Source: Calycina herbarum (lineage: Eukaryota; Ascomycota; Leotiomycetes; Helotiales; Pezizellaceae). Taken from it: 64,000 bases of DNA. Positions 1,920 through 60,572 of the stretch are shown in pieces. A program made the translations under genes and the position numbers. Location of the stretch: contig LLEY01000069.1 in NCBI GenBank assembly GCA_001414485.1, positions 124,001 through 188,000 of the forward strand, given 5' to 3'. The notes under the pieces were generated by a model. That model searched no databases. It saw only the letters and a program-made list of their open reading frames with translations, and had not been told where the DNA came from. Every line of letters starts with the position of its first letter. Position 1 is the stretch's first letter.

Positions 1920-3166
1920 CTATCCCCTTCTTAGCCTAGCGTGTTCTTACGCTTAAGTATAAGCTAAGAAATATTATTAAGAAGTTATTAGACTTCTCTT
2001 CCTTCTATTATATCGTTAACACCTATTTATAAAGACAGACTTAAATAATATAGAATTCTAAACACTCTTCGAATTAAATAATTAGAATACGAAATAATTC
2101 CCTATATCTGATATACTCGAGTAAAGACCGGTCGTCGCTATATTAGCGTTACTAGTAGTTCTAAGTACTCTAAGTATACTAGAAAAGGCAAGCTCTATAA
2201 CGTCGAATAATAAAACCGAATACTCTTACTTTTCGAATAAGAGTCTATTAATACCTAGTAGCGGCGGTTATAGTAAGAGAAAGAGATAGCTTTTAAAGTT
2301 TAAGAAGAAGCTATATAAAAGAGTTCTAAGGCTATATAGAAAATCCTCTGATTATAGTAGTAGTAACGTTTCCTTACTAAGCAGGAGTAAGAGATACTCC
2401 GACATAGTCTTATAAACCTATAAGAGCTTAATAAAGCTAAGAAGAGAGAAAGAGAAGAGAAAGAGTAGTAGAAAGTAGAGGAAAAATAATAAGAAGTAGA
2501 GATCGTATATCTAGCGGCTCTACCTATTCTCGCTAGTTCCTAATCTAAGCTAAGTCTCGACCTAGCCTTCTTTAAAGCTTTTCCTTCTAACTATAAGATA
2601 TAGGTAAACCTAGGTTTTACTAGTAGAACTCCTAAAGTTATACTAGGTAATAGTTAAGATTACTTCTTAGTTCTTAAGTGTTTTCTAAGTATAAGTAATT
2701 TAACTATTTAATTAAATACTTAACTTATCTTCTAATAATTTTATAGTTAAGAATTCTCTTAACTTTATACTTAGTATTTAGGTTTACTAGTTAAATTTCT
2801 ATAATTAGAGCTAGTAGAGCTCCTAGTAGTACTAGTTTAAGTAGAGATATATAAAATACTAGGTAGATGTTTATTATCTTTAGTAACGCTAGTTTATAAT
2901 TTAAAAGTTCTTTAACTTATTTAATTTTAAATAGTCTAAGTTTTTTATAATCTAGTTTATTACTTAGTCTTTTTATATTAATATTTTTTTATACTAAGTA
3001 GACTTTATCTCTCTCTTTTAGTATTAGCTCTTAACTACGTTGTTTATTATAGTAGTATATATTTCTTTTAGTTATAAACTATAAATCTTTTATAAGTTCT
3101 TTATATAGACTTTTAATTTTTAAGACGTAGATACGAGTAAGCTGATTATTAATAGTCGTAGGTAGT
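1920..3166 (-). mobile_element. Gypsy element C1, 3' part of the internal region, cut by element A1
   Basis: The polypurine tract (reverse) is at about 1,920-1,935, followed on the right by a 3' internal region. From about 2,600 to 3,166 it matches 61,530-62,090 of the C3 copy nearly base for base, in the same orientation. The part at 1,936-2,590 differs from C3, so C1 and C3 are subfamilies with different 3' segments. The right end at 3,162-3,166 is GTAGT, the target duplication of the A insertion. The continuation of this element is not at 9,205 but at 54,448, reading the other way. CA and TG are strongly depleted and no frame is open. Confidence 0.75.
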
Positions 3167-3398
3167 TGTTACAGCGCTGGTCCGTAACACGTGATTCTCA
3201 GTCCTACACGTGACCGTCAGAGCCGCAACGCTTAGACGGATTTATAACGAGATTAAAGGCTCTTTATAGTTAGTAGGAATACCTCTTTTTCGTAGGGTAT
3301 ATATTCCGTATTCCCTCGTTCTTAGAACTATAGCTTTAAATTCTCGAATATATATATATATACTCTTATACCTTTGTCTTTAGATATGGATTATGATA
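3167..3398 (+). repeat. 5' LTR of element A1
   Basis: Begins TGTTACAGCGCTGG and ends near TTATGATA, where other copies end CGTGACA. It is preceded by GTAGT at 3,162-3,166. It contains CACGTGATTCTCAGTCC and a TATATA stretch near its end, possibly the promoter. It is very similar to 8,973-9,204 and to the reverse complements of 54,449-54,679 and 60,254-60,485. Confidence 0.9.
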
Positions 3399-6300
3399 TT
3401 ATTTAAAGCTTAACTCTTTTTACTTCTTATAAAGGATTATAATATCGACTAGATTCTATGCTTATAACAGCTAGAAGATCTTATACTTGTAATAGTGTGA
3501 TTATAACCCTTCTTCTCTGCCTATAATAGCCTCTCTTCTTATAAACAGATCCCTCGAGTATCTCTACGTCTGTAACGACTTATCTCCTTGAAAGACACGC
3601 CTATAACAGCCTATATAACCTTTTTTATAACCCCTTCCTACCTTCTCCTCCTTCCTTTCTGATAATATAATAGCCGATACTTGAAGTGGTTGTGGTAGAA
3701 AAGGGAAGACACCTACTAGCTTGTCTCGAACTGAGTCTTAATAACCGGATAACACCTCTGGAGTCGCCCCTCCCTCGCCTGCCTCCCCTACGATAAGCGA
3801 GCCTCCTATAGACGAAAACGTTCGTTTATAGGCTAAAATCCTCTCTTTATATATATAACTCTACTAAACCCCGTTGCTTATAAACTACCTAGACAACCCT
3901 CTCCTAAGCCGCGAGTATACGTAAGCCCTCTAAGAGGCTACTACCGACTCCTCCTGTTCCTGATTTAGTTCTAACAATTCTGCTTATAAGTTCTAAGATA
4001 GCGAGAAACTTAAGAACGGCATCTCTCTGTTATATAAGGCTTAGCAGATTATCCTAGCTAGTAAAATGAGAAAGAACCTCTTCGAGGACGAATAAGACAA
4101 ACTTACCTTCGTCTTTATAGCTACTTCTGGCGTAGTATAAGAGCACCTGGAACTATAGATAGATTTCGGTTCTCTTACCTTATTTATAGACGTTATAGAT
4201 ATGTTTATACATTTAGATACCTTATTCGTAGATAGTAACGAAGCTGTAGAGGCCTGTAAGGTCTTCTATAAACTCTTAATATAAGAAGACGAGACTTTTA
4301 CTATGTTTAAAGCAACCTTCTTAAGCCTTATAACTAAGGCTTATATCCTGTTAAGTAAGTAGTCCGAAGATTTATACCAGAAGCTTACGCCAGCTCTTTA
4401 AGTAAGTATCTCGCTAGTCTGAATCACCCTAGCAACCTTTAACCAGTTATATAACCGCTGTTACTCTGTCTATTAAGACGGGGTAACTATTAAGGAACGC
4501 CTTACAGCTTACTACAACCGCCGCCTACCTATAAGAGGTTTCCCTGCCGGCTACGGATCAACTTACTAACTTCTAGCTCTATATACTGTTATTAGTTATC
4601 CGCTAACCTAAAGCCCGGTCCGTTACTCCCTAGTTATAGACCGTAAGACTCCTTTACCCACTCGTAAGAGTACGACTCCTATCTAGGATATAGCAGACGT
4701 TATCTATTACAATTACGATGAACCTAGGCACTACGCTAGTAAATGCCCTCTTCCTTAAAAACCCTCTATAGCTATTAAGCTATTAGAAGACGCTGAAAAC
4801 TCGCTTATAGACTTCTACGGACTATAAGCGTCTAGAGAAGAATCAGCTAACAAGGAACTCGTCTATAAGAACTCGGGAAAAGAACAGCTCTAAAGCAAGT
4901 CTCCTCTTTAGAGCTAAATAAACTTAGATCTTAACCTCTTAATCTAAGTCGTATAATAGGCGGAAAGGCTTTTATAACTATATATACTTTAATTAAGAAT
5001 AGATATGCTTTTAATACTACTAGACTTATTAATACTAGAGCGAATAGATAGCTATTTATTAATACGGCTTTAGCTGACTAGTTAAGTTAATATTATAGAT
5101 AGGCTACGGAAAAGCTATTATATATAATATTAATTATAGGGTTTAATAGACATAAAGGACTAGCGATTACTCGTGTTATTTGCTTAACGCTAAGTATCGA
5201 TAGATAATAGTTTACTAATACGCTCTTCCTAATTACTAATATCGGCGGATATAATATTATTATTAGCTGTTAATAGCTTATAGACGTAAACGTAAAGTTA
5301 GTAGTCTATAGCTATAAGATTAAGTAGCTAGAATCCCTTCCCCTAGTTCGTCGATTCGATTACTTAGTACCTATTACTAGGGAATCGATGACTATCTCCC
5401 TGCTAGACCTCTAGGCTTAGGAGGATATAGAGAACCGCGACCTCTACTAGAATACTATAGAGGAACCTATATTAATCTATTCGATACTACCTCGAAGCTA
5501 GCGCCAAACCCCGCTACTAGTCACTCTTAAGGAAATTCTAGACGAAAGCTTTTAGCAAGACCTCGTCTCTGCCTAGAATAGAATATAGGTCCTTATTCCT
5601 AACTGCTAACAACGTCGTCGATCCTCCTTAGGAAAACGTTTAGTTATAGACTATAAAGCGGCTGTGAGCTCGCTTACGGACATCTATAAACCTACAGAAG
5701 ACTTCGCTATTAATATCTATTATATTAGAGCTACTACTTTCAAACTTAACCTTTAAAAGCGCGATAACGAAGTCTTCTCTACTAGCTTACAAGAGATCGA
5801 CTATGCTCTTATAGACAGGTTATATATAGAGCTCTCTTTAGTAGATTACGCTTTAGACGAACAACTAGTAGAACAGAACGTTCGCTAGGAATATACAGAC
5901 TTCAAAGATGTCTTTTTAAAGAGAGCTTCAGACGAGCTTCCTCTACTACAAAACCAAGTCGACTACTAGATCAAACTTACAAGTCCGAATACTCTATTAC
6001 ATAGCCTATTATACAGGATAACGACTAAGGAACTTCTAGCTATAAAGTAGTATATCCTCGATAACCTTAATAAAGGGTTTATTATTCCTAGCCACGCCCC
6101 TTTCACCTCTCTAGTACTGTTCGTAAAGAAGCCTAACAGAAGCTTACAGCTCTATATCAACTACCGGAAACTTAACAACCTTACTCATAAGAACCAGCAC
6201 CCTCTTCTACTAATCAACGAAACTCTTACACAGATCACTAGTACTAAAATCCTTACAAAGCTCGACATTCGTTAAGCTTTTAACCGTATATATATAAAAC

Positions 6301-8972
6301 TAGAGTTAGAAGAACTTACAACCTTTCAGACCTATTATAGCATATTTAAATATAAGGTATTACCTTTCAGCTTAACCAACGATTCTACTATATACTAGAG
6401 ATATATAAATAGCGTTCTTATAGAATATCTCAATAACTTTTATATAGCTTACCTTAATAACATTCTTATATACTCTAATAATAAGCTTAAATACGTTAAA
6501 CACGTCCGTAAGGTCTTAGAACAGCTCTATAAAGCTAGGCTATAAGTAGATATTAAGAAGACAGAGTTCTACGTTACTCGTACAAAGTACCTTGGTTTTA
6601 TTATCTTTATAGACGGAATCGAAGTCGACCTAGAGAAGATCTTAGCAATCGTTTCCTAGAAATATCCTAGTACTATTAAAGGTATCTAGTCCTTCCTAGG
6701 TTTTTATAACTTCTACCAACGTTTTATTCAGGATTATAAACGGATTACTCGTCTACTAAACCATCTTACGAGTAAGGAAGTGCTATTTAAGTTCAACTTA
6801 GAATATAAGAAGGCTTTTAATATATTAAAAGAAGCCTTAGTTACCGTCTCTCTCTTATACTACTTTATAGCCGATTTAGAGACTATAGTTAAGACTAACG
6901 CTTCTAATAGAGTAGTTACAGCTATAATATTATAACGTATATCTAAGACCGAACTATAGAGACTCGTAGACTACTTCTCGAAGACGATAAACCCTGCTAA
7001 GCTAAACTACCAAATCTACGATAAGGAGATGTTAGCTATTATATACTCTTTTAGATAATAGCGAGCAGATCTTGCTTAGACTAGCTCCTAGATCAAGGTC
7101 TTCACTAATTATAAGGCTTTAGAGTACTTTATAACCTCTAAAACCTTGAACTAGTAATAAGCGAGATAGGTAGAGTTTCTATTAGAGTTCTATTTTATAA
7201 TTACGTTTCGATCTAGTAAGTAGAACGAGAAAACGGACACGCTAATACGCCGAGACTAAGACGTTAACCCGTAGAACGACCTAAAAGCGTCTATAAGATA
7301 ATAAACCTTACTTACGTCTAATTAGTTAGATCTACGTATTACTACTCGATTAGAACCTCCTATAACGTTAGCCCTAGTTACCTTAGAACCCTTGCTTAAC
7401 CTTGTCGACTAGTTACTTACTACTAACTATAACTCTTCGGACTTAGAAGACGACTAAACGAAAGCTACCCGTAGGTACTAAAACTAGATAATAGAGAACA
7501 GCTTACTTCTTTAGCAAAAGAGACTCGTAGTTCCTAATTAAGGCACCTTACGGACGGACCTAATCCGTAAGGCTTATGTATAAGTATCTACGGCTCACCC
7601 TAGACGGACAAAGACGGTAGCTATCCTCGCCCGTAGATACTAGTAGAAAGGTTTATAGACGTCTGTAGAAACCTATATTAATAACTACAGAGACTGTCGA
7701 TATACTACAGTTCCTTATAACTGTAAACCTAGGTTTTTATACCTGTTACTAGTTCTAGAACGTCTCTAGTAGTATATTACTATAGACTATAAGTCTTTCC
7801 CTACTGATAAACAAGGTTATAATACCTTATAAGTAGTTATAGATCGCCTAACTAAGTAATCGGTCTCGATCCCTTGTCTAAAGACAGTTATAGCCCGAGA
7901 TATAGCTCGAATATACGTTATATAGATCTATTAAACCTACAACTATCTATAAAGTATTATTTTAGACTATAGACTATAGTTTATTTCTTCTTTCTAGTCT
8001 AAATTCTATAGAATCCTTAGTATAAAGCTTAAGCTATCTACTGCTTTCTATCTACAAACTAATAGATAAACTGAAATTATAAACTAATAGATTAATCAAC
8101 GCTTATAGCCTTTTATTAGTTACTATTAGAACAACTAGAGCGAACTTGTCCCTATTCTAGACTACGCTTAGCTTATGCTTTGACATAAGAGTCTAGGTAG
8201 GCTCTCGCCTTTTAAAGTAATTAACAGATACGTAGCTACTACGTCCTTTAATTAGAACCGTCTAGATAAATCCGTAACAGTCTACGAACAGCTTAACTAG
8301 ACCGATGTAGAGGCACTTATATAGAGAATATACGATACTTAGACCATAGCAAAGGAATTAGTTAGTAAAGTATAAGACCGCTATATAAGGTCTGCGAACC
8401 GGATTCGAAGAGCGGTAGACTTTAACATAGACGACTTTGTTTAAGTATTAACTCGTAATTAGAAGACAGACTAGCTAAGCTATAAGCTAGATAGACAAAA
8501 CAAGGGTCTATTCTAGATTACAGCCTATAAAGGACACTCTTTCTAGCTCGAACTACTAGACCACTTCTATATACACCCTGTATTCCACCCGTTACTACTC
8601 TATAAAGCTGCTATAGATCTATTACCTAGACAGGTAAACGAACCACCCCTGCTAATATAGGTTATAGATTAGGAAGAGTAAGAAGTAGAAGAAGTCTTAG
8701 CTATAAAAGCAGTTCGTAGAAAGCTCTAATACAGGGTTTAATAGTTAGGCTATAACCCTAATCTATAGTAGTATCCGGCCTCGAATTTTAAGTATTATCT
8801 ATATAAATTATACGATTTTCACCTTATTAATCTAGCTCGCGCTAGTCCGCTAAGGGCTTTATAAAGCTAGATATAAGCGTAGGAAGACGGAATAGACGAT
8901 TATGATTATCTAATAGACGATTCAGTTATAATATAAAGCTTATAGACAAGCTTTTTCTAAAAGGAGGGGTAA

Positions 8973-9204
8973 TATTATAGCGCTGGTCTATAATACGTGA
9001 TTCTCAGTCCTATACGTAACCGTCAGAGCTGTAACGCTTAGACGGATTTATAACGAGATTAAAGGCTCTTTATAGTTAGTAGGAATACCCCTTTTTCGTA
9101 GAGTATATATTCCATATTCCCTCGTTCTTAGAACTATAGCTTTAAATTCTCGAATATATACATATATACTCTTATACCTTTGCCTTCAGATATAGATCGT
9201 GACA
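8973..9204 (+). repeat. 3' LTR of element A1
   Basis: Begins TATTATAGCGCTGG (a RIP-altered TGTTACAGCGC) and ends GATCGTGACA. It follows a polypurine tract directly. The next five bases are AGTAC (9,205-9,209). That pentamer matches the outer flank of the other A copy (GTACT at 60,486-60,490 is its reverse complement), not the left flank of this copy. Confidence 0.9.
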
Positions 9205-9472
9205 AGTACGTACGCTAGTACTAGCGTATATCTAAGCGAGTATATAATATCTAGCAGCTTTTATAACTATTATAACAGACGTGAATAAATAGCTTTTACT
9301 AGTACGTTAGCCGGCTAAAAGATATAAGAATTAATTAGTAGACTAGTTCGCTATTCTACTACTTAATAGGAATCCCGGTGTAACACCGCCTACGTAACCT
9401 CTAGCTACGTGACAGCTGTTACAACTATAACTGTTATACTTAAGATATTTAGAATTAACTATAGAATATAGC
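9205..9472. other. AT-rich relic between A1 and a solo LTR
   Basis: RIP-degraded sequence with no readable frame. It keeps a few CpG-rich patches such as CCCGGTGTAACACCG near 9,373. The first five bases are AGTAC, a target duplication shared with the far side of A2. The last five, ATAGC, are the target duplication of the solo LTR that follows. I recognise no coding capacity. Confidence 0.6.
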
Positions 9473-9933
9473 TATTATAAATTATATACTAATATATAAC
9501 TAGTAAAGTCTAGGTAATACTCTAATAAGATAAGCACTATTAGAACCTAGTAGAGGAAAGAGGATTAAATATATTAGATATATAATCTATAGATCTTATT
9601 ATAGTTATATCACGTGACTCGGTTAGAAGTAGTTAGGTAATAGAGCCTAGTTTTTAAGAGCTCTAGAATTAGAGTCGGACTTTATCTTTAAAACTTCTAT
9701 AGAATAGAACTTTAAATAAGAACGAAGGTTTTATATAAGACTAGTACGTCTACTATTAGATAGAGGCTTCGTACTTAACTTTAGTTATTAATCTTATTAT
9801 CTTATTTAATATCTTTGATATAAGTAACGAGTTCACTTTTAAGTAAATAACCTAGTATATCTATACTTCTTATCTATATACTAACCTTCGAGACTTAGTT
9901 ACTTTTATTTAGTTTATATAGAGTTTCGTTATA
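9473..9933 (+). repeat. Solo LTR of family C (C3 subfamily) with perfect target duplication
   Basis: 461 bp, homologous in reverse complement to the LTR at 60,573-61,035, including the part that differs from the C1 LTR (for example GAGGATTAAATAT). It is bounded on both sides by ATAGC (9,468-9,472 and 9,934-9,938). There is no C internal sequence on either side. The perfect duplication with a single LTR is what remains after recombination between the two LTRs of a full element. Confidence 0.88.
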
Positions 9934-9938
9934 ATAGC

Positions 9939-10490
9939 TAGTATAAAATATATAAAAGTCGTTTATATTTATTTAGCTTTTTTTTAATTTAAAGATATAA
10001 ATAGACGTTAATAAGTTATACTTAAGAATTAATATCTATTACTATATAGTAGAAATTCTAACGTCTATCTTTATATTCTAAGACGTACTTTATTATAAAA
10101 CGAATCTATAGTTTTAGAATTATAAATTTTTTCTTAGTATATCTATAAAGTTGTTATTAATATATTACTTTCTTTAACTATTTCTCTCTAAGAAGACTAC
10201 TTAGTAATAAGAAAAAGAGTATAGTTAATTATACTATTAATAGTTTTAATTATACTACTAATCGCTGCTTCTACTATCTCTCTCTATTTAATTATAACTA
10301 TTAAAGTCTTTTTAAAATTCAGAGTACTTAAGAGAAGGTCTTATTATAAAATAATATAGCTCTAAATTTTAAAGATACTTAGAGAGAAAAAGAATATAGT
10401 CCGAGAGTTATACTAGTATAATAAGAGTGTCTATATGTTTTAGTACTTAGTAATATATATTAGCCTAGATAAAATTTACTATATTCACGC
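9939..10490. other. AT-rich RIP relic, left edge of the gene island
   Basis: CA and TG are strongly depleted and no frame is open. I recognise no retrotransposon domain. The shift to normal composition is abrupt at about 10,485-10,500, where CACGCCAGGGCTCGC appears. It is probably remains of an older repeat. Confidence 0.6.
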
Positions 10491-17805: not shown

Positions 17806-19760
17806 TCAAGCATCCTCCGCCGCCTTCAGCGCAATAGCAAACCTCTCCCTCAAATCATTAGCATCCTCAAGTCCAATACTAACCCGAATCAAATCAGCTG
17901 GAACCCCAAACTGGGCCGCCCACTCCAACTCCAAATAATGCGCCAACACAACATAAGGCGAAATAAGCGTAAAATTCGTCCCCAAACTAGGTCCTTTCGC
18001 AGTCTCAATCCTATCATAGAATGCCACCGCTTGAGGTTTAGTTTTGAATTCAAAAGACAACAAACCTCCATACCCGCCATTCGGCGTTCGACAAGCGTCG
18101 TAGAATTCGCGGGAGGAATTGTATTTTGGGTAGTATAAGTTGGTAACGAGAGGATGGGAGCGTAGGATATCACAAAGGATTTCCGCGTTATCGTTTATTT
18201 TTTCGATGCGCGAGACGAAGTGCCGACTATTGCGCTCCATGAAGATAATGTCTTCAGCCCAATAGTTGTCTTCGTATTCCGATTCCAGGGTCTTTTTGAG
18301 CTGTGCGTAGTATTTGCTCTTGGGGTTGAGGATTGTGCCTCCGCCCATGACGTTACATTCTCCGGAGAAGATTTTAGTTAAGCTGCTGACGACCAGGTCG
18401 GCGTGTGGGAGGACGTGGACGTTGATGAAGTTACCGATTGTTTCGTCGACTACGACGCAGAAGTCGTATTTATCTGCGAGACGACGGATTCGTATTAAAT
18501 CTGGACATTTGAGCATTGGGTTGCCGGGGAATTCGCAGAAGAGAGCTAGGAATTTTTCGCCAGACTCTAAGCGTTTTTCGATATCATCGAGGTCGGCTGA
18601 GGATCCGTTGCCGTAAAATAGACAGCCTGGACCAAACTTTTCAAGAACTTTGAGCGTGTCGATGTAGGGAAATCCAAATGAAATACTCTTTAGTTGACCT
18701 CGGGATTCAAGTAACATTTGGTGTGCGTTGAAAATCGAGTTCATACCACAAGGATATAAATAAACATCGTCCTCGGACAGTCCGGTGACACCACGTGTAT
18801 CTGCCCGCTTTGGACTCGAACTTCCACCTTTAGCAAGGTCTTCTTCGCCCATTAATGAACCAGCTATGCGACGTTTAATGGCCGACTTGGCATTTTCGAC
18901 CAAGGAGACGTCAAGGTTGCGACCAAATCTCTCCTCTAAAAATGTAGAACTCTCACGAACATCTGGCTCAGACCGAGGATGCTTTGGCTCAATGGGAGAA
19001 GAGGACCCATTTTTCTTGGTGGTATCGATTGAACCTCTTTGATATCTTCTAGGGCCTTTGCAAGATTTTTGGAATCCAATCTCGCCATTTGAAATGGGTT
19101 GCAGAGTCTTTTCATCAGTCAAGATACCCTCCTGGAAAAGACCGTGGCAAAACTCGGCTCGCCTACTTGAAACACCGTCACCAGAATGTTGCCAATATTG
19201 CTTTGCAATAGGAAACAACTCTTTAGGATAGATGACAGCTGAGATGGAAGGAGATAATTTTGACAACATCTCCGGGATTTGTTGGCTTCTGTCGAGGACA
19301 AGGCCGAAGATTTGTAATTGGTTGATGGATATTGAGGGGTCTCTTTCGAGCATAAATTTGATACAACTCCGAGCAATTCGGTGTGTTGGAAAGAGCATTG
19401 CTGACTGGCCTGGCTTTCCATGTTTTTTCACGATATCTTCGGCGAATGCCACAATTGATTTGTGAATGAAGAAACTGGATGACGAGTTGGTGAGAAGTCA
19501 AAAGTGGGAATTCCAAATGACATACCGTGGATAACCAGTTGTCATCTTACTCAAAACTCTCTCTTTACCCTCCTCATATTCGACGTTGTCGAGCCATGCT
19601 GGGAGTGACACGCTCGTTCCCTGGGTTTCATCAGCATGTTGTTTGTTTTCATGGGGGGGCAATACACATAAAGGAATATTGAAATGGTGAAGTGATTGGA
19701 ATTGAGACTTACATGGGGAGTCAGAGAGGGAATAGAGTCTCCTAGCTCGATAACCGACAT
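17806..19760 (-). CDS. Cystathionine gamma-synthase (PLP enzyme of transsulfuration)
   Basis: Three exons on the minus strand: 19,760-19,713 (MSVIELGDSIPSLTPH), 19,620-19,526 and 19,474-17,806; introns 92 and 51 nt with GTAAGT/CAG and GTATGT/CAG ends; 603 residues. The spliced N-terminus reads TSVSLPAWLDNVEYEEG and then TTGYPRFFIHKS, the conserved start of fungal cystathionine gamma-synthases (met-7/STR2 type). The Cys/Met-metabolism PLP fold follows. The PLP lysine is Lys 415 in SSLTKIFSG, and VVDETIGNF and CEFPGNP are the cofactor-pocket segments. The enzyme joins an O-acyl-homoserine with cysteine to give cystathionine on the way to methionine. Fungal forms carry a long N-terminal extension, as here. 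It is head-to-head with the Utp22 gene, 534 bp apart. No disruption is seen. Confidence 0.93.
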
Positions 19761-20294: not shown

Positions 20295-23200
20295 ATGTCT
20301 CCGATATCTTCCAAACGCCGGAAGCTCGATCACGATAGCGCCGATGATAATTCCAATTTTTCGGGCTCAGACGAGGAAATGATGGGAGCGGGGGAGGACG
20401 ATGCGCCGAATACCACAGCGAAGCAAACCCACACAAAACCACATCATGCGCGTGACATCGACCAAAGTGCTGTGTATGCCGGAGGACTTTTCAAATCCAA
20501 TACCTTCAAAATCCAGGTCGACTATCTGCTGGAAGAAATCAGGCCGAATTATGAAGGAAGGTTGGGAAAGGCGAACGAGACCTTGAGCAAATTGAAAGGC
20601 TTGATTGAAGGCCTTGAGTCTCGAGCTGAGCTTCCTGTGAGTAAATACTGGAAAATCTGGCTGGAAAGGAACAATTCTAACTGGAATACACAGGTCGCAG
20701 AGGCTACAAAGGTGTTGCAGAAATCCCACAAAATCTCCATTCCATTTCCCTCCCCCAAACCCGATAAAAATGCTGCCTACAAATTGGCATATGCGAAGCC
20801 ATCTAAAATAAATGTTGTTGGGAGCTACCCGATGAAAACTATGGTCAAGCCCGCACAATCTGATCAAGTTTTATCTATCGATATGGTTGTTGTTATGCCA
20901 GCTTCAATCCTTCAAGAAAAGGACTACATGAATTATCGCTATTTTTACAAGAGAGCGTATTATCTTGCGAATATAGCTGCTGGCCTTCAAGAAACCCTGA
21001 AAGAAGCTTACACGCTCAAGTTCAAGTATCTCAGTGGGAATGATCTTCACCCAATATTGACAGTCAAGCCAAAACCAAGTATGGATGCCCATTAAAATAA
21101 TAAACTATAGCTAACTAACACCACATTGCAGCTGAATTGAAATCCCACTCCAAATACGAAATCAACATAATTCCTGCTGCCCCCGCTGGATTTTTTGCAG
21201 ACGCCAAATTGCTTCCAGCCAGGAATTCCGTTCGACCCAAAGATGGAGCCGAAAATGCCACCCTTCCACCTACCCCATTTTACAACGCTTCCCTAAGCTC
21301 AGACCGAAACTTCGAGGCATACCTTAAACTTTTACACTTGGCATCAAAGCAGTCTAAGAGTTTTGCGGATGCAGCTATGTTGGGTCAAACCTGGCTTAGG
21401 CGACGCAATTTCTCTGGCTGCGTCTCGCAAGGAGGATTTGGGAATTTTGAGTGGGCTGCTATAATGGCTCTGCTCATGAAAGGCGGCGGCCCAAAAGGCC
21501 ATGCCATTCTTTCAGAAGGTTATAGCAGCTACCAGATGTTCAAAGCTATGCTCCAGTTTATCTCGACAAATGATATGTCTAGCAAGCCATTCATTTACGA
21601 AGCTTCGGATGTTTCTCTACCAAAATCGGACACTCCAGTTTTCTTTGATGGGCCACGAAGTCAAAATTTGTTATACAAGATGACTCCCTGGTCCTACGGT
21701 CTTCTGAAAGAAGAGGCCAAGGTTTCCCTGGACATGCTTAACGAGGAAACTTTCGACCAGTTCGAGTCAACTTTTGTCACTTCTGCCTCAGAGCCATTGC
21801 AAAGATATGACTGCATAGTTTGTGTGCCATTGCCTACCGAGACTCCTGCGACCTCGACCTGTGATCACCTCACACAGATTACGAGCTTCGCCCGTCGGGT
21901 CTTCAGCGTCTTACGGGAAGGACTTATGGATAGGGTCAAGCTGATCAATATCCAAGCCCCAGCGCTACCTAATTGGTCAATCAAGTCTTCTGGGCCAGCT
22001 TCAGAAGCACAAATACTGTTATATTTCGTGTTTGATCCAGCAAATGTAGATCGTCTCGTCGACCATGGACCATCAGCCGAGGAGAAGAAGAAGGCGCTCA
22101 AGTTCCAAAAATTCTGGGGCGAAAAGGCCGAATTGCGTCGATTCAAGGATGGCAGTATCCTCGAAAGTTTGGTGTGGAAGTCCGGTTCTACATATACCGT
22201 GTTCCAAGAGATCGTCACTTATATCATCAATCGCCATTTCACTCAGGATATCAGTGATGGTTTAACATTTGTGGGGCAAAGTTTTGATAAAGCGGTGCGG
22301 TCTAGTTCAGACTCTGGCACAAAGCAGTTTGAAGCCCTCAAGGAAGCGTTCCGCGCCTTTGAGAAGAACGTTAGAGAACTCGAAGGATTGCCGTTACAAC
22401 TACGACAACTTTCCCCCACAAGTCCCCAGTTGCGATACACTTCTATTGATGCGCCCTCATTCAGTGCTCATAGTCCTCTAAAATTTCCAGCCGATGTATT
22501 GATTCAATTCGAAGGCTCTGGAAGATGGCCAGATGATCTTGTTTCGATCCAACGTACGAAAATCGCTTTCCTACTCAAAATTGGAAACTTACTCGAAGGT
22601 TGCGATGGCGTTGTTTTGAGTCGAGTTGGCCTAGAGAACGAAGACAAACAATTCGAAAATTGTGCTTTCCTGGATATCGTCTACGAATCAGGAGCTGCCT
22701 TCAGATTGCGCATTCAAAATGATCGAGAGCAGACTCTCCTAGAGCGTCTCGTCAAAGACAAATTAACAGACTCTCGTACCCGAGAAGAAGCCGTGTCGGC
22801 ATTGGCAGCCTACAAAACGACCTTCGTTCAAATGCCCCTCTTAACGCAATCAATCTCAACACATTGCACAAGATTCCCCCTCCTCTCACCTACGATTCGT
22901 CTGATGAAGATGTGGTTTGACAGCCACATGCTGTCTGGACACGTTAGCGGTGAGTTGATTGAGCTCTTGGTGGCGCATACTTTCCTGCACGCTTATCCTT
23001 GGCGAGCGCCCTCATCTGTTATGACTGGATTCCTGCGAACGCTGATGTTCATCGAGCGATGGGATTGGCGTCATCAAGCTCTGGTTGTTGATTTCACCGG
23101 TACCATGACGAGTAAAGATGTCACCTCTGCGAATATGCGGTTGGAAGCTTGGAGGAAGATTGATCCTGGTATGAATCGAACGGTTGTTTTTGCTGCGACG

Positions 23201-23746
23201 AATCATGATCCTAGCGGTGTTGGGTTCACAGAGATGGGCCCTTCGAAAGTGGTTGCTGCTCGTATGACTGCTCTCGCTGGATCGGCATATAAAGTTGTGA
23301 AACAAAGGGGGTTTGAATTGGATCACCGATCACTATTTGCTAGTTCAACGGCTAGCTACGATTTCATTATTCATATCTCTCCCTCCACCAAAGACCGGAA
23401 ACGCAAAGAAAGCTCGAAATCGAAATTCAAGAATTTGGAGGTGCAATCTGAAGTCGATCTGGAACAAATTGGCTATTCACCTATACCTCTTTACCTTGCT
23501 GAACTGAAGAAACTTTATACGAATAGTATTGTGTTCTTTTATAGTGAGGAGTCTGGTGCTGTTATTGGGGGATTGTGGAATCCACAATCGGTTGCAAGCA
23601 GACCATTGAAGGTCAGTGTTGCTTATGCTACGAGACCTAGTGGGAAAGAGGGGGAGGAGGATGTTGAGTTGGATAAATGTGCTATACTATCGGAAATCGC
23701 GAGGCTGGGTGGCGATATGGTTAGGGAGGTTGAGGTTCATAGATGA
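20295..23746 (+). CDS. utp22: Utp22/Nrap nucleolar protein, small-subunit processome
   Basis: Three exons: 20,295-20,636, 20,694-21,078 and 21,132-23,746, giving 1,113 residues, the usual size of fungal Utp22. The start is CACCATGTCT. The N-terminus is acidic and nuclear-like (SSKRRKLDHDSADDNSN). Family blocks seen include DIDQSAVYAGGLFKSNTFKIQVDYLLEE, LSGNDLHPIL, LRRRNFSGCVSQGGFGNFEWAA, FWGEKAELRRFKDGSILESLVW, SPTIRLMKMWFDSHMLSGHVS and DLEQIGYSPIPLYLAEL. The protein is built from tandem nucleotidyltransferase-like (PAP/OAS1) modules and acts with Rrp7 in the UTP-C module of the 90S pre-ribosome. Intron 1 (20,637-20,693) is 57 nt, a multiple of three without a stop, so it could be read through; its GTGAGT donor, CTAAC branch and CACAG acceptor mark it as an intron. 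Confidence 0.93.
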
Positions 23747-49133: not shown

Positions 49134-49568
49134 TATAGAAAGTAGTAAGTAGTTTAGATAGCGCTCTAATAGAACAAGGTACGATATCTAGGAAAGGAAG
49201 GTAATATAGAAGGAAATCAGTAATATAAAAAGCATATAAGGGTTTTAGGATCTCACTGTTGTAATATTGTTAGAAGTCACGTGCGATCATGTGACGTAAT
49301 CGCCCTGATCGACCTGATCGCTCTGATCGCGAGCGATATAGGCGATATATATAGAGAACGAAGGTTCTATATAAGACTAGCACGTCTGCTATTAGATAGA
49401 AGCTTCGTACTTAACTTTAGTTATTAATCTTATTATCTTATTTAATATCTTTAATATAAGTAATAAGTTTACTTCTAAGTAAATAATATATCGCGTCTAT
49501 ATCTCTTATTTATATACTAATCTTTGAAACTTAGTTATCTTTATTTAGTTTATTTAAGTTTTATTATA
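49134..49568 (+). repeat. LTR of family C (5' LTR of C1)
   Basis: Begins TGTTACGAATTATAG, ends TTATTATA; 435 bp. The preceding five bases, CTACG, are the reverse complement of CGTAG at 1,452-1,456, the outer edge of the other C1 LTR, so the two ends of C1 still share their target duplication. The stretch 49,260-49,340 is unusually little mutated and keeps three CTGATCG units and GTCACGTGCGATCATGTGAC. Confidence 0.85.
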
Positions 49569-52500
49569 CTTTAAGCACCTGCTTAGAAGTATAGCTAGTA
49601 CTATGTCGAAAACTATACTATTCTCAGGTTTAACCTCTATACTACTCTTAGTACTAATAATACTAGTAGTACTAGTTACGACTTTTAGAGAGGAAGTGAA
49701 GTTACTAGTACTAAGAATATTTAACAGCTCTCTAGAAAAACTTACTAAGTTTATTATAAAAGCTTTAATATACTTAAACTTTTACTTAGTATAGTTTACT
49801 TATAAAACAGATTAGGTTATATAGCTTACTACCTATCTTAAGAGAGTAGTATATAACTAGATAGAACTATATTTAGAGGATTTTTAGAAGAATAAAATAT
49901 TAAATAGAAAGATATTAAATCTTATAAGTAAAAGTACTTAAGGATTATTCTTAACTATTACTAGATTTAAGAAGGAGATTATTAGGTATTTATAAATATA
50001 GATTTAAAGAAAAAAGTAGTATAAGCCTTATATAGCCTTTGATAAAAGGGTTTAGCTACTAAATATATATTAATATTCTAGTAGTACTCTACGCGTCTTA
50101 GCTAGAATAACGAGGCTTTACGTAAGCAGTTCTATAGAGGATTAAAGAATAGTGTTAAAGATAAATTAGCTAGAGATAACTTTCTAGATATACTTAATAA
50201 ATTAACTAATAATATAATTAAAATTAATAATTGAAATTATAAGCGAAGTCTAGAGAAGAAAGGTAGTTATAAACATTAATAAGAAAAGAGTAAGAAAAGA
50301 GACTATAGAGATTCTATAGAAATTAATACTACTTAGAAACGTTAGATATTAAGAAAAGGAACTTAAGATAGAAACCTACTTAAGAGAGAGCTTTTCTAGA
50401 AGGAGCGAGATCGTTAATATAAGTAGAACTTATATTATAAATATAGCCTTCTTAGCTATAGAGTAAATAAGTATAGTAAGAAGAAAGACTCTAAAGAGAA
50501 ATAAGCTAACGCTACTATCTAAAAAGAAGTAGCTTTACTAGAAAAAATTAAACTTATAGACAAAGAACTTAAGATTAGAGGATATAGTATATAGATTGAA
50601 ATAGATGCTTTAGATATAATAGTAGATACTATATATTTATAGCTAGATAAAGGAATTAAGTTATAAGTTAGTAAAGTATAGAATACTAATAATAGTAGAA
50701 ATCTACTTTTTAAAGAATATTATAATATATAATTATAAATAGAATATAAATCGCCTTATTAAGTAGAATACGAATCTCTACTATTAATAAGTTTATTAGA
50801 GTTATTAGAATTAGAATCTAATTTATTAGAAGTAGATCTAAGAATATATAAGCCTAAATAAGACGAGATATAGGTATTTATTAGAACCTTTAAAAGAGAG
50901 AATAGATAAGTATATATAAAAAACTAGAAACCTGATTTTTAGAGCCTATATTCTACTTAAGGAATTAATTCTATTATTTTAACTACCTATATAATAGTTT
51001 AGAATAAACGAGATAGAATAATAATAGTAAGCCTTATTACTAGGAGAGAAACTATCGAACTTAAGGAACTTAGACTAGAATAAGTAATAACTAATAAGCT
51101 ATTAAGTTAGTCTAAGATAAGAGATATATAGACGGTTATAGACCTCTGGGAAGAAACTAGTTTATAGTAATAGTATAGTCTAGAGAAATTTACTAGATAA
51201 CCGAAACCTAGTTTTTTAGACACGCTACTAAAGGAAACGCTACTAGAAATAGAAGGCTAGTATACTATAGTTGCTTTAGTTAGTATTATTAGAGTAATAT
51301 TTTAGAAACCTAGGACTAGGAAACTGTTTAGTATAATTTTTTAGGAAATAAACGAATATAATATAGACTAAGAAATAAAGTTAGTATAAAAAGAATTATA
51401 CTATCTAATAATCGGAGAATTATAGTTTATAGAAATAATAAACGAAACTATAGCTAAATAGACGTGATATTATCTAAACGTTATATCTTATTAGTCTATA
51501 AAGAAACGATTTATAGGAGTATTACTAGAATTAAGATAGATTATAGAATATAGATTAAAATATAAGATAGTTTTTATAGATTTAGAAAAGATAACCTTTA
51601 TTCTAAAATCTAGTAAAGAAGATAAGAATAAAAGAAGATTTAAAGTATACTTTATAATAGAAGAATTAAATACTACCTTAGAAGAGAATTAGTTAGTTAT
51701 AACTATAAAAATAAAGAGAAAGGAACTCTAAGTTATAATTAACTCTAGAGTAATAGATAATTTCCTTTCTCTAATAGCTTTGAAGAAGCTAAACATTCTA
51801 ATTAAGAATATAAAACTATATTACCTTAGAGTAGTTAATAGAACGGACGTTGCTTACTAAGATAAGATTATTAATTAGTAAACTATTCTAGTAGGAATTA
51901 ATATTAAAAGACACTACTTAGATATATAATTCGATATTATTAAAATAGGAAGTAAGGAAGTAATACTTAGTATACTATAGATTTAGAAACATAATCTAGA
52001 TATTAATTAGAAGGCTTAAATATTAACCTTTAGTTAATATAATTATACAAGTTTATAATTATAACTATAAAGCTAGAACAAGGTTAGCGCTACCTCTTCT
52101 AAGACGCTAGAATACCTTACTTAGAGTCTTTTATAAGATAGTAAGACAGCTGATAACGAAATACTTATATAGTATAGAGAATTTATAGCTTTGTTTAAAA
52201 ACCTAGAAGACTTATAAGCTTTACTAGAATATCGCTTATAGAATTATAAGATTAAATTAAAAGAGGGTTATTACTTCTCGAAGTAGAAGCTTCGGTTATA
52301 TAACTAGAAAAGCCTATAAAAAATAGAAAGTTATATAAAGAAAGGTATTAAAAAGGGATATATTAGGAGATCTAAGTTACTAATTACCTTAAATATACTT
52401 ATTATTAAGAAGAAAGATAACCTAGAAGAGAGAGTATATATTAATTACTAAGAAGTAAATTATACTATAGTTAAGGACGCTTATCTACTACTACTTAGCT

Positions 52501-54448
52501 AATACTTATAAGATAAGTTAGACAAAGTAGTATAATTTACGAAATTAGATTAATAAAACGCTTATAGACTTATATAGATAAAAGTTAAAGACTAATAGAA
52601 GATAGTATTCGCCTTACTATTAGGCCTTTATAAATATATAGTTATACTATTTAGACTATATAATATACTAGCTATATATTAGAGATAAAATAATAATATT
52701 TTAAGAGATCTTTTAAGAATAATAGTAATCTATTATCTAGATAATATCTTAATCTTTTTAGAAAAGGAAGAAGAATATAAGAGATATATTAGAGAAGTTC
52801 TATAATAACTTATAAAAGTGAACTCTTAATTAAAACTCTTGAAATACGAGTTTAAAGTAACTTAGATACTCTTCCTAGGATAGGTATTTAGCTTAGAGAA
52901 GATAGAAATAGATCTAGTAAAAATCTAAGATATCTTAAACTAGAAATTACTAGAGAATATAAAAGATATATAGTTCTTTCTTAGATTTATAAACTTCTAC
53001 TATCTATTTATTATAAACTATATAAAGATTACTAAACTAATATTAGTACTAGTAAAAAAGGCTATTAAGTTTATATAGAATAAATAAGCTAAGGACGCTT
53101 TCTAGAAGATTAAAGTAAGGTTTATAGAAAAACCTATTTTATATAATTTTAATATAAATAAACCTAGTATAATCGAAATAGATGCTTTAGATATAGTAGT
53201 AGGTATAATTTACTTATAACTAAATAATAAAGAAAGACTTATATCTATTATATATTATTCTAAAACGTTTAATCTAATATAATAAAACTATAGTATCTTT
53301 AATAAAGAATTACTTATTATAGTATTAGCTCTAGAATACTAGAGAATTTATTTATAGCTAGTAAAATATTAAGTTACGATTTTATTTAATTATAAGAATC
53401 TTAGAATATTTATAATAACTAAGGAACTTACGACTAGATAGTTAGCTAGATAGGTAGAGATATTAGAAGAGTTTAATATTATTATTTATTATATAAAAGG
53501 AACGTTAAATACTTAAGCTAATACTCTTAGTTAGAAACCTAGATATAAGAGGAATAAAGAGTATAAGAAGATTATAATCTTAAAAACTCTTAAAAATAGA
53601 GACTTAGTATCTACTATATATAAAATAGTAGTAATAAATAATATCTAGATAAATAAGATTTAGAATATATATAAGAGATATAACTAGTATATAAAAGGAA
53701 AACTATAGGTTCCTAGCTTATATATAAAGGAGTTTATATAAGAATACTATACTATACCTACTTATAGCTACTAAGGAATTTATAGAACTCTCTAGAAGAT
53801 AAGATAATACTACTATATTAATTAGTTATCTACGATAGTTAAGGAAGTAATAATAGAATATAATACCTATACTAAGAATAAGGCTTTCTACTATACTTCT
53901 TATAAATAGATAAATACTACTCTAATACTATAGATACCTTAGAAATCGATATCTATAGATTTTATTATTAAATTACTAAAATCTAAAGATCTAATAATAG
54001 GAGTTAAGTATAACTTGATTCTAGTTATTATAGAACGACTTACGAAGTATATAATTTTAATAGTATATATAGAATTAAGTATAGCTAAGGAATTAGTATT
54101 TATATTCCTTAGAGAAGTAGTCTTAAGATATAGACTACTAGAAGAAATAATCTTAGATAGAGATAAACTTTTTACCTCTAAATTTTAGATTACTCTTATA
54201 GAACGATTAAGTATAAAAAGAAAGCTTTTTATAGCTTTCTACTCTTAGATAAATAGAGGAAACGAACGTATAAACTAGGTTATAGAAATATACCTTTATT
54301 ATTATATAAACTACTAGTAAGATAACTAAGTAGAACTACTACTCTTAGTATAGTTTGTCTATAATAGTTTAGTAATAGAAATAATACTTATTACGTTATT
54401 CTATACTAATTATAAATATAAATTATTAGTATATTAAGAACTACTACT
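49569..54448 (+). mobile_element. Gypsy element C1, gag-pol (RIP-degraded, cut by A2)
   Basis: The gag start is at 49,603 (MSKTILFSGLTSI, open for 63 codons). Then come a protease region (about 51,680-51,900), reverse transcriptase (about 52,380-52,900; active-site box YLDN at 52,734-52,745 where YxDD is needed), RNase H (about 53,150-53,530) and integrase (about 53,720-54,370; VKYNLILVIIERLTKY, ILDRDKLFTSKF and NERINQVIEIYL stretches). The catalytic Asp to Asn change and the many TAG/TAA codons fit RIP. The element breaks at 54,448 in ACTAC, the target duplication of the A insertion. Its 3' part is at 1,920-3,166 on the other strand. Confidence 0.85.
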
Positions 54449-54679
54449 GTCACGATCTATATCTGAAGGCAAAGGCATAAGAGTATATATATGTATATTT
54501 GAGAATTTAAAGCTACAGTTCTAAGAACGAGGGAATGCGGAATATATACCCTACGAAAAAGGGGTATTCCTGCTAACTGTAAAGAGCCTTTAATCTCGTT
54601 ATAAATCCGTCTAAGCGTTGCGGCTCTGACAGTCACATATAGGACTGAGAATCACGTGTTATAGACCAGCGCTGTAACA
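54449..54679 (-). repeat. 3' LTR of element A2
   Basis: Read on the plus strand it begins TGTCACGATCTATATCTGAA and ends GCGCTGTAACA. It keeps intact TG and CA ends, better preserved than the A1 LTRs. Confidence 0.9.
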
Positions 54680-57600
54680 TTACCCTCTCTTTTGGAAAAA
54701 GCTTGTCTATAAGCTTTGTATTACGACTGAATCGTCTGTTAGATAATTATAATCGTCTATTCCGTCTTCCTACGCTTGTATCTAGCTTTGTAAAGCCCTT
54801 AGCGGACTAGCGTAGGCTGGATTAGCGAGGTGAAAATTATGTAATTTATATAGGTAATACTTAAAATTCGAGGCTAGATACTACTATGGATTAGGGTTAT
54901 AGCCTAACTATTAAACCCTGTATTAGAGCTTTCTACGAACTGCTTTTATAGCTAAGACTTCTTCTACTTCCTACTCTTCCTAATCTATAACCTATATTAG
55001 CGGGGGTGGTTCGTTTACCTATCTAGGTAACGGATCTATAGCGGCCTTATAGAGCAGTAACAGGTGGAATACAGGGTGTATACGAAAGTGGTCTAGCAGT
55101 TTAAGCTGGAAAGAGTGTTCTTCGTAGGCTGTAATCTAGAACGGACCCTTGTTTTATCTATCTAGCTTATAGCTTAGCTAGTCTGTCTTCTAATTACGAG
55201 TTAATACCTAAACAAAGTCGTCTATGTTAAAGTCTACTGCTCTTCGAATCTGGTTCGCGGACCTTATATAGCGGTCTTATGCTTTACTAACTAATTCCTT
55301 TACCACGGTCTAAGTATTATATATTCTTTATACGAGTGCTTCTGTATTAGTCTAGTTAAGCTGTTTATAGACTGTTACAGATTTATCTAGACGGTTCTAA
55401 TCGAAGGACGTAGTAGCTACGTATCTGTTAATTACTTTAAAAGGCGAGAGCCTACCTAGACTCTCGTATAGAAGCGTAAGCTAAGCGTAGTCTAGAATAG
55501 GGACAAGTTCGCTCTAGTTGTCCTAATAGTAACTAATAAAAGGCTATAAGCGTTGATTAATCTATTAGTTTATGATTTCGGTTTATTCGTTAGTTTATAG
55601 GTAGAAAGTAGTAGATAGCTTAAGCTTTATACTAAGGATTCTATAGAATTTAGACTAGAAAGAAGAAATAAACTATAGTCTATAGTCTAAAACAATACTT
55701 TATAGATAGTCGTAGATTCGATAGATCTACGTAACGTATATTCGAGCTATATCTCGGGCTATAACTGTCTTTAGATAGGGGATCGAGACCGATTACTTAG
55801 TTAGGCGATCTATAACTACCTATAAGGTATCGTAACCTTGTTTATCAGCAGGGAAAGACTTATAGTCTATAGTAATATACTGCTAGGGACGTTCCGGAAC
55901 TGGTAACAGGTGTAAAAACCTAGGTTTACGGTCGCGAGGAACCGTAGTACGTCGACAGTCTCCGCAGTTACTAATGTAGGTTTCTACAGACGTCTATAAA
56001 CCTTTCCACTAGTATCTACGGGCGAGGATAGCTACCGTCTTTGTCCGTCCAGGGTAAGCTATAGATACTTATACGTGAGCCTCACGGATTAGGTCCGTCT
56101 GTAAGGTGCCTTGATTAGGAACCACGAGTCTCTTTTGCTAAAGAAGTAAGCCGTTCTCTATTATCTAGTTTTAGTACCCGCAGGTAGCTTTCGTTTAGTC
56201 GTCTTCTAAGTCTAAAGAGTTACGGTTAATAGTAAGTAACTGGTCGACAAGGTTAAGCGAGGGTTCTAAGGTAACTAGGGCTAACGTTATAGGAGGTTCT
56301 AATCGAGTAGTAATATATAGATCTAACTAATCAGACGTAAGCAAGGTTTATTATCTTATAGACGCTTTTAGGTCGTTCTATAGGTTAATATCTTAGTCTC
56401 GGCGTATTAGCGTGTCCGTTTTCTCGTTCTACTTACTAGATCGAAACGTAATTATAAAATAGAACTCTAATAGAAACTCTGCCTATCTCGCTTACTACTA
56501 GTTTAAGGTTTTAGAGGTTATAAAGTACTCTAAAGCCTTGTAATCAGTGAAGACCTTGATCTAGGAGCTAGTCTAAGCAAGATCTACTCGCTATTGTTCG
56601 AAAGAGCGTATAATAGCTAATATCTCCTTATCGTAGATTTAGTAGTTTAGCTTAGCGAGGTTCATCGTCTTCGAGAAGTAGCCTACAGGTCTCTACGGTT
56701 CAGTCTCGGATATACGTTGTAATATTACAGCCGTAACTACTCCGTCAGAAGCGTTAGTCTTAACTATAGTCTCTAAATCAGCTATAAAGTAGTATAAGAG
56801 AGAGGCGGTAACTAAGGCTTCTTTTAACATATTAAAAGCCTTCTTATATTCTAAGTCGAACTTAAACAGCACTTCCTTACCTGTAAGATGGTTTAGCGGA
56901 CGAGTAATCCGTTTATAATCCTAAATAAAACGTTAGTAGAAGTTATAAAAACCTAGGAAGGACTAGATACTCTTAATAGTACTAGGATATTTCTAGGAAA
57001 CGATTGCTAAGATCTTCTCTAGATTGACTTCGATTCCGTCTATAGAGATAATAAAACTAAGGTACTTTATACGAGTAACGTAGAACTCTGTCTTCTTAAT
57101 ATCCACTTATAGCCTAGCTTTATAGAGCCGTTCTAAGACCTTATAGACGTGTTTAACGTGTTCGAGCTTATTATTAGAGTATATAAGAATGTTATTAAAG
57201 TAAGCTGTATAAAAGTTATCGAGATATTCTATAAGAACGCTATTTATATACCTCTAGTATATAGTAAGACTGTTAGTTAAGCCGAAAGGTAACACCTTAT
57301 ATTTAAATATACTATAATAGGTCTAAAAGGTTATAAGTTCTTCCGACTCTAGTTCTATATATATATAGTTAAAAGCTTAACAAATATCAAGCTTTATAAG
57401 GATTTTAGCACTAGTGATTTATATAAGAGTTTCGTTGATTAGCGGAAGAGGGTGCTAGTCCTTATAAGTAAGGTTATTAAGTTTCTAGTAGTCGATATAG
57501 AGCTGTAAGCTTCTGTTAAGCTTCTTTATAAACAGTACTAGAGAGGCGAAAGAGGCGTGGCTAGGAATAATAAACCCTTTATTAAGGTTATCGAGGATAT

Positions 57601-60253
57601 ACTACTTTATAGCTAGAAGTTCCTTAGTTGTTATCTTATATAACAGGCTATACGATAGGGTATTCGGACCTATAAGTTCGATCTAGTAGTCGACTTGGTT
57701 TCGTAGCAGGGGAAGCTCGTCTAAAGCTCTCTTTAAAAAGACATCCTTAAAGTCTATATATTCCTAGCAAACGTTCTATTCTACTAGTTGTTCGTCTAAA
57801 GCGTAATCTACTAAAGAGAGCTCTATATATAACCTGTCTATAAGAGCATAGTCGATCTCTTATAAGCTAGTAGAGAAGACTTCGTTATCGCGCTTTTAAA
57901 GGTTAAGTTTAAAAGCAGTAGCTCTAATATAATAGATATTAATAGCAAAGTCTTCCGTAGGTTTACGGATGTTTGTAAGCGAGCTTATAGCCGCTTTATA
58001 GTCTATAACTAAACGTTTTCCTAAGAAGGATCGACGACGTTGTTAGTAGTTAGGAATAAGGACTTATATTCTATTCTAAGCAGAGACGAGGTCTTATTAA
58101 AAGCTTTCGTCTAGAATTTCCTCGAGAGTAACTAGTAGCAGGGTTTAGCGCTAGCTTCGAGGCAGTATCGAATAGATTAATATAGGTTCCTCTATAGTAT
58201 TCTAGCAGAGGTCGCGGTTCTCTATATCCTTCTAAGCCTAGAGGTCTAGTAGGGAGATGGTTATCGATTCCCTAGTAATAGGTACTAAGTGATCGAATCG
58301 ACGAACTAGAGGAAGGGATTCTAGCTACTTAATCTTACAGCTATAGACTACTAACTTTACGTTTACGTCTATAAGCTATTAACAGCCGATAATAATATCG
58401 TATCCGCTGATATTAGTGATTAGGAAGGGCGTATTAGTAAACTATTGTCTGTCGATACTTAGTATTAAGCGAATAACGCGAGTAATCGCTAGTCCTTTAT
58501 GTCTATTAAACCCTGTAATTGATATTACATATAACAGCTTTTCCGTAGCCTATCTATAATATTAACTTAACTAGTTAGCTAAAGCTGTGTTAATAAATAG
58601 CTATCTATTCGCTCTAGTATTAATAAGTCTAGTAGTATTAAAAGCATATCTATTCTTAATTAAAGTATATATAGTTACAAAAGCCTTTCCGCCTATTATA
58701 CGACTTAGATTAAGAGGTTAAGATCTAAGTTTATTTAGCTCTAAAGAGGAGACTTGCTTTAGAGCTGTTCTTTTCCCGAGTCCTTATAGACGAGTTCCTC
58801 GTTAGCCGATTCTTCTTTAGACGCTTATAGTCCGTAGGAGTCCGTAAGCGAGTTTTCAGCGTCTTCTAATAGCTTAATAGCTATAGAGGGTTTTCGAGGA
58901 AGAGGGCATTTACTAGCGTAGTGCTTAGGTTTATTGTAATTGTAATAGATAACGTCTACTATATCCTAGACAGGAGTCGTACTCTTACGAGTAGGCAAAG
59001 GAGTCTTGCGGTCTATAACTAGGGAGTAACGGACTAGGCTTTAAGTTAGCGGATAACTAATAGTAGTATATAGAGCCGGAAGTTGGTAAGTTAATCTATA
59101 GCTAGTAGGGAAACCTCTTATAGGTAGGCGGCGGTTGTAGCGAGCTGTAAGGCGTTCCTTAATAGTTACCCTATCTTGATAGATAGAGTAACAGCGGTTA
59201 TATAACTAGTTAAAGGTTACTAGGGTGATTTAGACTAGCGAGATGCTTACTTAAAGAGCTAGTATAAGCTTCTAGTATAAATCTTCGGACCACTTACTTA
59301 ACGGGATATAAGCCTTAGTTGTAAGACTTAAGAAGGTTGCTTTAAATATAGCAAAAGTCTCGTCCTCTTATATTAAGAGTTTATAGAAGACCTTATAGGC
59401 CTCTATAGCTTTGTTACTATCTACGAATAAGGTATCTAGATATATAAGCATATCTATAACGTCTATAAATAAGGTAGGGGAACTGAAATCTATCTATGGT
59501 TCTAGGTGCTCTTATGCTACGTCGGAAGTAGCTATAAAGACGAAGGTAAGTTTATCTTATTCGTCTTCGAAGAGGTTCTTTCTTATTTTGCTAGCTAGGA
59601 TAATCCGCCAGGCCTTATATAACGGAGAGATGCTGTCCTTGAGTTTCTCGCTATCTTAGAACTTGCGAGTAGAATTGTTAGAACTAAATCGGGAACGGGA
59701 GGAGTCGGTAGTAGCCTCTTAGAGGGCTTGCGTATACTCGCGGCTCGGGAGAGGGTTGTCTAAGTAGTTTATAAGCAACGGGGTTTAGTAGAGTTGTGTA
59801 CGTAAAGAGAGGATTTCAGCCTATAAACGAACGTTTTCGTCTATAGGAGGCTCGCTTATCGCAGGGGAGGTAGGCAAGGGAGAGGCAACTCTAGGGGTGT
59901 TATCCGGTTGTTAAGGCTCGGTTCGAGACGAGCCAGTAGATGTCTTCCCTTTTCTACTATGACTACTTCGAGTGTTAGCTATTGTATTATCGGAAAGGAA
60001 GGAGGAGAAGGTAGGGAGGGGTTATAAAAAAGGTTATATAGGCTGTTATAGGCGTGTCTTTCGAGGAGATAAGTCGTTATAGACGCAGAGATACTCGAGG
60101 GATCCGTTTATAGGAAGAGGGGCTGTTATAGGCGGAGAAGGAGGGTTGTAATCATACTATTATAAGTGTAAGATCTTTTAGCTATTATAAGCGTAGAATC
60201 TAGTTAATATTATAATCCTTTATAGGGAGTAAAAAGGGTTAAGCTTTAAATAA

Positions 60254-60485
60254 TATCACGATCTATATCTAAAGGCAAAGGTATAAGAGAATATATATAT
60301 ATATTCAAGAATTTAAAGCTATAGTTCTAAGAACGAGGGAATACGGAATATATACCCTATAAAAAAGAGGTATTCCTACTAACTATAAAGAGCCTTTAAT
60401 CTCGTTATAAATCCGTCCAAGCGTTGCGGCTCTGACGGTCACGTGTAGGACTGAGAATCACGTGTTACGGACCAGCGCCGTAACA
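60254..60485 (-). repeat. 5' LTR of element A2
   Basis: Read on the plus strand it begins TATCACGATCTATATC and ends GCGCCGTAACA, followed by GTACT. It retains CACGTGTAGGACTGAGAATC and CACGTGTTACGGACCAGC, an almost unmutated version of the LTR core. Confidence 0.9.
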
Positions 60486-60572
60486 GTACTAGCGCGGATA
60501 ACTTGTATTTAGTTCTTAGTTCTCTTAAGCTCTTCTACTCTCCTCGTCTTTTATTCTAAGAATAGAGTATTA
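60486..60572. other. Spacer between A2 and the C3 LTR
   Basis: 87 bp starting GTACTAGCGCGG and ending TATTA. The first pentamer is the reverse complement of AGTAC at 9,205-9,209, so this spacer and 9,205-9,472 were probably contiguous before A2 inserted. Confidence 0.6.

Follow-up and report, generated by a model that had tools for sequence, protein, structure and literature searches.

Two inverted copies of element A around a gene island

The stretch of DNA analysed here (the window, 64,000 nucleotides) corresponds to C346:124001-188000, i.e. contig LLEY01000069.1, of a 68.8-Mb assembly of Calycina herbarum in 379 contigs. It contains a gene island between two copies, A1 and A2, of an LTR retrotransposon termed element A:

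3167-9204, plus strand: A1, RIP-mutated LTR retrotransposon of the Ty3/Gypsy group, 6038 bp (sequence comparison, domain order)
3167-3398 and 8973-9204, plus strand: the LTRs of A1, 232 bp each (LTR comparison)
9205-54447, no strand assigned: probable inverted segment, 45,243 bp, with the gene island (arms of the inverted pair, gene content)
17806-19497: cystathionine gamma-synthase gene (protein match to HYFRA_00003082)
21119-23746: Utp22 gene (protein 88% identical to HYFRA_00003081 of Hymenoscyphus fraxineus)
54448-60485, minus strand: A2, the other copy of the Ty3/Gypsy element, 6038 bp (alignment to A1)

A1 starts with TG and finishes with CA. An inverted-repeat search of the window returned A1 and A2 as the pair I1, with arms of 6038 nt and 45,243 nt between them, and their alignment shows 92.0% identity (480 mismatches over 6037 aligned bases, 0 gaps). 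Both copies are dead, their reading frames being broken by many stops. Among three between-stop pieces of A1 that were compared with Pfam, two matched no family, while the third matched RT_RNaseH_2 at 4.2e-6 and, at 0.00067, a Myb model; neither match reached the curated cut-off. Since these pieces gave too little, the search was rerun with stops read as X, which recovered RVT_1 (8e-21), RT_RNaseH_2 (2.5e-19) and RT_RNaseH (2.4e-17), with Integrase_H2C2 (1.3e-6) downstream; the catalytic integrase core had no match in this Pfam search. The order reverse transcriptase, RNase H, integrase is a mark of Ty3/Gypsy elements. With reverse transcriptase followed by RNase H and the integrase zinc domain, LTRs bounded by TG and CA and a 5-bp target duplication, A belongs to this group.

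The repeats bear the marks of RIP, which are transitions, depletion of CpA/TpG and an excess of TpA in repeats. The differences between A1 and A2 are transitions in 478 of 480 cases, 314 of them in present CpA/TpG context and 164 outside it. The ratio (CpA+TpG)/(ApC+GpT) amounts to 0.05-0.34 in 2-kb repeat bins versus 0.94-1.51 in the gene bins at 10-46 kb. A1 and A2 are located within AT-rich blocks of strong RIP composition that flank the gene island; its open frames extend from about 10.7 to 45.1 kb, and its G+C content is 0.42-0.48 in all 2-kb bins but one. Ten 120-bp samples taken to the right of the window, at 189-212 kb, contain 1-5 CpA+TpG each and likewise have a repeat-like look.

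Exchanged target duplications and closure of the host repeats

As the initial annotation had read them, the flanks of A1 are GTAGT on the left (3162-3166) and AGTAC on the right (9205-9209). For A2, it had given AGTAC before and GTAGT after the element in its own sense. Both pentamers are confirmed, as is the position of the first (GTACT at 60486-60490 on the plus strand), but ACTAC occupies 54443-54447 and not 54444-54448, a difference of one base. The duplications of A1 and A2 are thus exchanged.

Crossed pentamers could also arise by coincidence from independent insertions whose own duplications were lost or mutated. Such a coincidence is helped by the shortness of 5-mers, by RIP, which makes flanks A+T-rich, and by the recurrence of AGTAC within the first 20 bp to the right of A1. 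However, when the left 5-mer of one A copy was compared with the right 5-mer of a copy on another contig, just 10 of 2248 comparisons matched exactly. Two crossed exact matches would hence be expected about 2 times in 100,000 if independent, host-repeat continuity not yet counted.

Most of the other complete copies of A that were examined have matching duplications. LTR and internal searches listed 421 candidates for the former and 173 and 175 for the latter, and 80 hits from two lists (40 of 41 rows, a 63-bp row having been dropped, and a further 40) were combined into 71 copies. Apart from A1 and A2 themselves and a copy located at the start of a contig, all of these (68) had their edges examined: both full-length ends are present in 29, the 5' end alone in 16, the 3' end alone in 22 and neither in one. 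Of the 29 intact copies, 27 have matching duplications (23 identical 5-mers, four one transition off); the other two are a copy on C59, which differs by one transversion, and C150:39438-45475, which has no match. Four more copies, presumed to be split by later insertions, were paired from single-end rows on the same contig in the same orientation, 12.7-18.7 kb apart, and their duplications match exactly in all four cases. In total, duplications match in 31 of the 33 complete copies other than A1 and A2, so that an exchange of flanks is exceptional in this family.

Unmatched flanks are nevertheless not unique to A1 and A2, because the full-length copy C150:39438-45475 has them too. Its flanks, GTAGG and GTTAT, match different repeats. 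Among the best 40 of 233 candidates in a flank search, no row matched both flanks at length, and eight rows for the right-flank repeat extend into the left flank by its final 6 letters. This copy might represent a second recombination product, a lost duplication or a mis-join.

The same signature would be yielded exactly by an assembler that flipped the 45-kb segment between the 6-kb inverted repeats, with matching duplications around both A copies in the organism itself. The present case is judged from the assembled sequence, and C150:39438-45475 adds one more A copy with unmatched flanks. Yet corrected reads should be able to separate A1 from A2, given their 480 differences and a longest identical run of 103 bp, and the 31 of 33 matching copies indicate that the assembly usually crosses A correctly. 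An error of this kind is therefore unlikely, albeit not impossible.

The pentamers are embedded in host repeats. Each A copy has one flank in a repeat termed C and the other in a repeat termed D:

2601-3166, plus strand: left half of host repeat C; its last bases are the target duplication GTAGT (matches C3 from 61522 onward; contiguous when joined with 54442 leftward)
9205-9270, plus strand: AGTAC (9205-9209), followed by the right-hand section of host repeat D as far as E, a small repeat (join searches)
52534-54447, minus strand: right half of host repeat C, reversed, ending in ACTAC, which is GTAGT in sense (alignment to C3)
60486-60785, minus strand: GTACT (60486-60490), then the left-hand section of host repeat D with the adjoining B repeat (join searches)
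61522-63996, plus strand: C3, an uninterrupted C copy, which serves as in-window model of the empty GTAGT site (alignment)

For site 1, the left flank of A1 was fused through a single GTAGT to the reverse-complemented sequence that precedes A2 on the plus strand, which gave a 600-bp query. It aligns to C3 (61788-62387) without gaps at 87.8% identity, which bears out the earlier proposal that the C element closes over one GTAGT as it does in C3; a longer version of the join aligned over about 2.5 kb at 82.3%. Across the assembly, the join was crossed at every scored locus (the best 40 of 974 candidates), 36 of them spanning positions 1-600 of the query and four spanning 1-591 to 1-598.

The query for site 2 combined the outer flank of A2 with the right flank of A1 over a single AGTAC. 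At 600 bp, it is dominated by the very common B repeat, while its right half enters repeat E 61 bp from the join, and one spanning locus was found among the rows listed, C357:61202-61559 (L011), which has AGTGC once as its target. This variant can be reconciled with the AGTAC of the window, since RIP of its TpG would give AGTAC. A 121-bp query confined to the D repeat was spanned across the join at every scored locus (the best 40 of 131). Such support for closure of the AGTAC site goes beyond what the initial annotation had offered. In the lists for the two as-found joins given below, eight loci were available for comparing D-left with D-right matches: the two are exactly adjacent at five, overlap by 11 bases at one and are without a listed partner at two. 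One of the latter, C348:278960-279080, is spanned by the 121-bp query. Both restored sites come from paralogous copies of the host repeats, and they were read letter by letter at L011 and C3 only.

The joins as found around A1 and A2 were searched as well. For C-left/D-right, the best 40 of 269 candidates include one spanning row, C169:51116-51212 (78%), which is also a C copy, and four rows that overlap by 2 letters. For D-left/C-right, no row among the best 40 of 787 crosses the join by more than 4 letters. Coincidence leaves the closure of the host repeats over the crossed joins, in 40 of 40 scored loci each, unexplained and is thereby refuted; we assign it practically no probability.

Repeat E itself is about 150 bp long (window about 9271-9423) and is situated within D, at a distance of 61 bp from the border of A1. 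It occurs at many loci, several times as pairs about 440 bp apart.

The proposed crossover and its timing

On the basis of the flanks and the host repeats, the following course of events can be proposed. Two copies of the Ty3/Gypsy element A would have inserted in opposite orientation at a distance of about 45 kb. One insertion into a C repeat would have duplicated GTAGT; the other, into a D repeat, would have duplicated AGTAC, which reads AGTGC in a D copy with fewer mutations. A crossover within A1/A2 would then have inverted everything between them, and each copy seen today would be a composite, its left portion derived from one insertion and its right portion from the partner, with one duplication from each. 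As the copies are inverted on one chromosome, i.e. in cis, a single step could produce the inversion.

A one-step crossover of this type had been suggested in the initial annotation, and its two predictions agree with the data: the duplications are exchanged, and each outer pair closes at all 40 loci scored for it, the top-ranking ones of 974 and 131 candidates, respectively. Of the limits proposed for the inverted block, 9205-54448, the left one stands, while the right one is corrected to 54447. We infer that there was a single crossover and that it took place in the organism rather than in the assembly. Judged from the sequence, one A × A crossover that inverted 9205-54447 in the organism very probably explains both the flanks and the closure of the host repeats.

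The inversion could in principle have been mediated by other inverted repeats round the island, i.e. copies of B or C, and such pairs are indeed present (I2, I3, I4). However, duplications are swapped only if the crossover falls between the ends of A, because one in the flanks leaves each copy its own pair, and the exchange observed here coincides precisely with the LTR ends. This refutes mediation by B or C, which is accordingly rated as extremely improbable.

The crossover within A cannot be placed along the element, since nearly all differences are transitions, the LTRs do not pair across copies and the longest identical run is unremarkable. Regarding the last point, when the 480 differences were shuffled uniformly 2000 times, 8% of the shuffles reached a run of 103 bp. 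The strand bias of RIP along A, inspected by eye in 300-bp bins, shows no step.

Among the LTRs, no signal pairs the 5' LTR of A1 with the 3' LTR of A2 (19 differences) or the 5' LTR of A2 with the 3' LTR of A1 (21). The closest pair are the two 5' LTRs with 10 differences, all other pairs having 18-21, and the four-way comparison contains only transitions except in one column. Dating or pairing of LTRs to recover the original insertions was rejected, as the six columns that divide the LTRs two against two all set the two 5' LTRs apart from the two 3' LTRs, i.e. they sort by end and not by insertion. Column 117, the sole two-against-two column for which the survey allowed a comparison at both ends, is polymorphic at each of them: 34 of 43 5' LTRs and 33 of 48 3' LTRs have T.

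The crossover in the organism probably preceded the greater part of the RIP mutations by which the copies differ today. This timing is suggested by the mean identical stretch between A1 and A2, which is now about 12 bases. RIP is often described as a guard against recombination between repeats. A crossover after RIP divergence, for which 8% divergence would be no bar and which would leave the island still able to flip between strains, is considered improbable.

Precedents, synteny and further inversion substrates

The mechanism is already known. Exchanged target duplications mark the transposon-mediated inversion 2z3 of Drosophila buzzatii, in which Galileo is involved (PMC2775673). Like A1 and A2, opposite copies of one element are described there at both breakpoints with exchanged duplications, and ectopic recombination was inferred (PMC2775673). 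In contrast to the present case, non-inverted chromosomes were sequenced for 2z3 and each target was found to be single (PMC2775673), whereas a single assembly was used here and the sites come from paralogous repeats. Moreover, both Galileo copies were reported to be chimeric (PMC2775673), while A1 and A2 are without visible switch point. The elements differ as well: Galileo is a DNA transposon of the P superfamily with 7-bp duplications (PMC2775673), A a Ty3/Gypsy retroelement with 5-bp duplications.

Among ascomycetes with AT-rich blocks, 30 within-chromosome inversions of 1.3-355 kb, bordered by transposable elements in 70% of cases, distinguish Leptosphaeria maculans 'brassicae' from 'lepidii' (PMC4210507). 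Unlike for A, the association was made by synteny, and the available portion of that article does not mention exchanged target duplications (PMC4210507). In H. fraxineus, LTR/Gypsy elements are affected by RIP, so that Gypsy copies with RIP signatures are common to both cases; the word "inversion" has no occurrence in the main text of that article (PMC8254937). Within the open-licence literature, the wordings 'exchanged TSD' and 'exchanged target site' were found in Drosophila work only, which is weak evidence of absence.

New here is a fungal instance with RIP, a Ty3/Gypsy element and both ancestral sites from paralogous repeats. Unless the assembly is wrong, A1 and A2 provide an unusually clean single-genome case in a fungus, in which a past inversion can be read from one assembly without a related genome. 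The combination of 5-mer flanks and host-repeat closure could be used across the whole family to count rearrangements per genome. As for its consequences, the A1/A2 inversion is local and is not known to affect any gene.

By protein similarity, H. fraxineus is the closest organism among the named sources. The cystathionine gamma-synthase and Utp22 genes of the island are adjacent and have consecutive tags in several Leotiomycetes (e.g. HYFRA_00003082/3081, IFR04_013485/013486, L3040_003702/003701), and both H. fraxineus genes lie on one 1.81-Mb contig. To the left of the window, L225:4735-5592 (C346 about 98.7-99.6 kb) holds an FMN-dependent hydroxy-acid dehydrogenase gene, the one left outside gene tried, whose best named-source match is HYFRA_00009772 on a 745-kb contig. 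As this gene maps to a different contig, the orientation of the island relative to H. fraxineus could not be scored; possibly, a further synteny break is situated in the AT-rich block.

Another inverted repeat pair (597 nt, 91%) is formed by window positions 1-597 and 49363-49959 and brackets most of the island. It lies outside the A exchange and might constitute another substrate for inversion.
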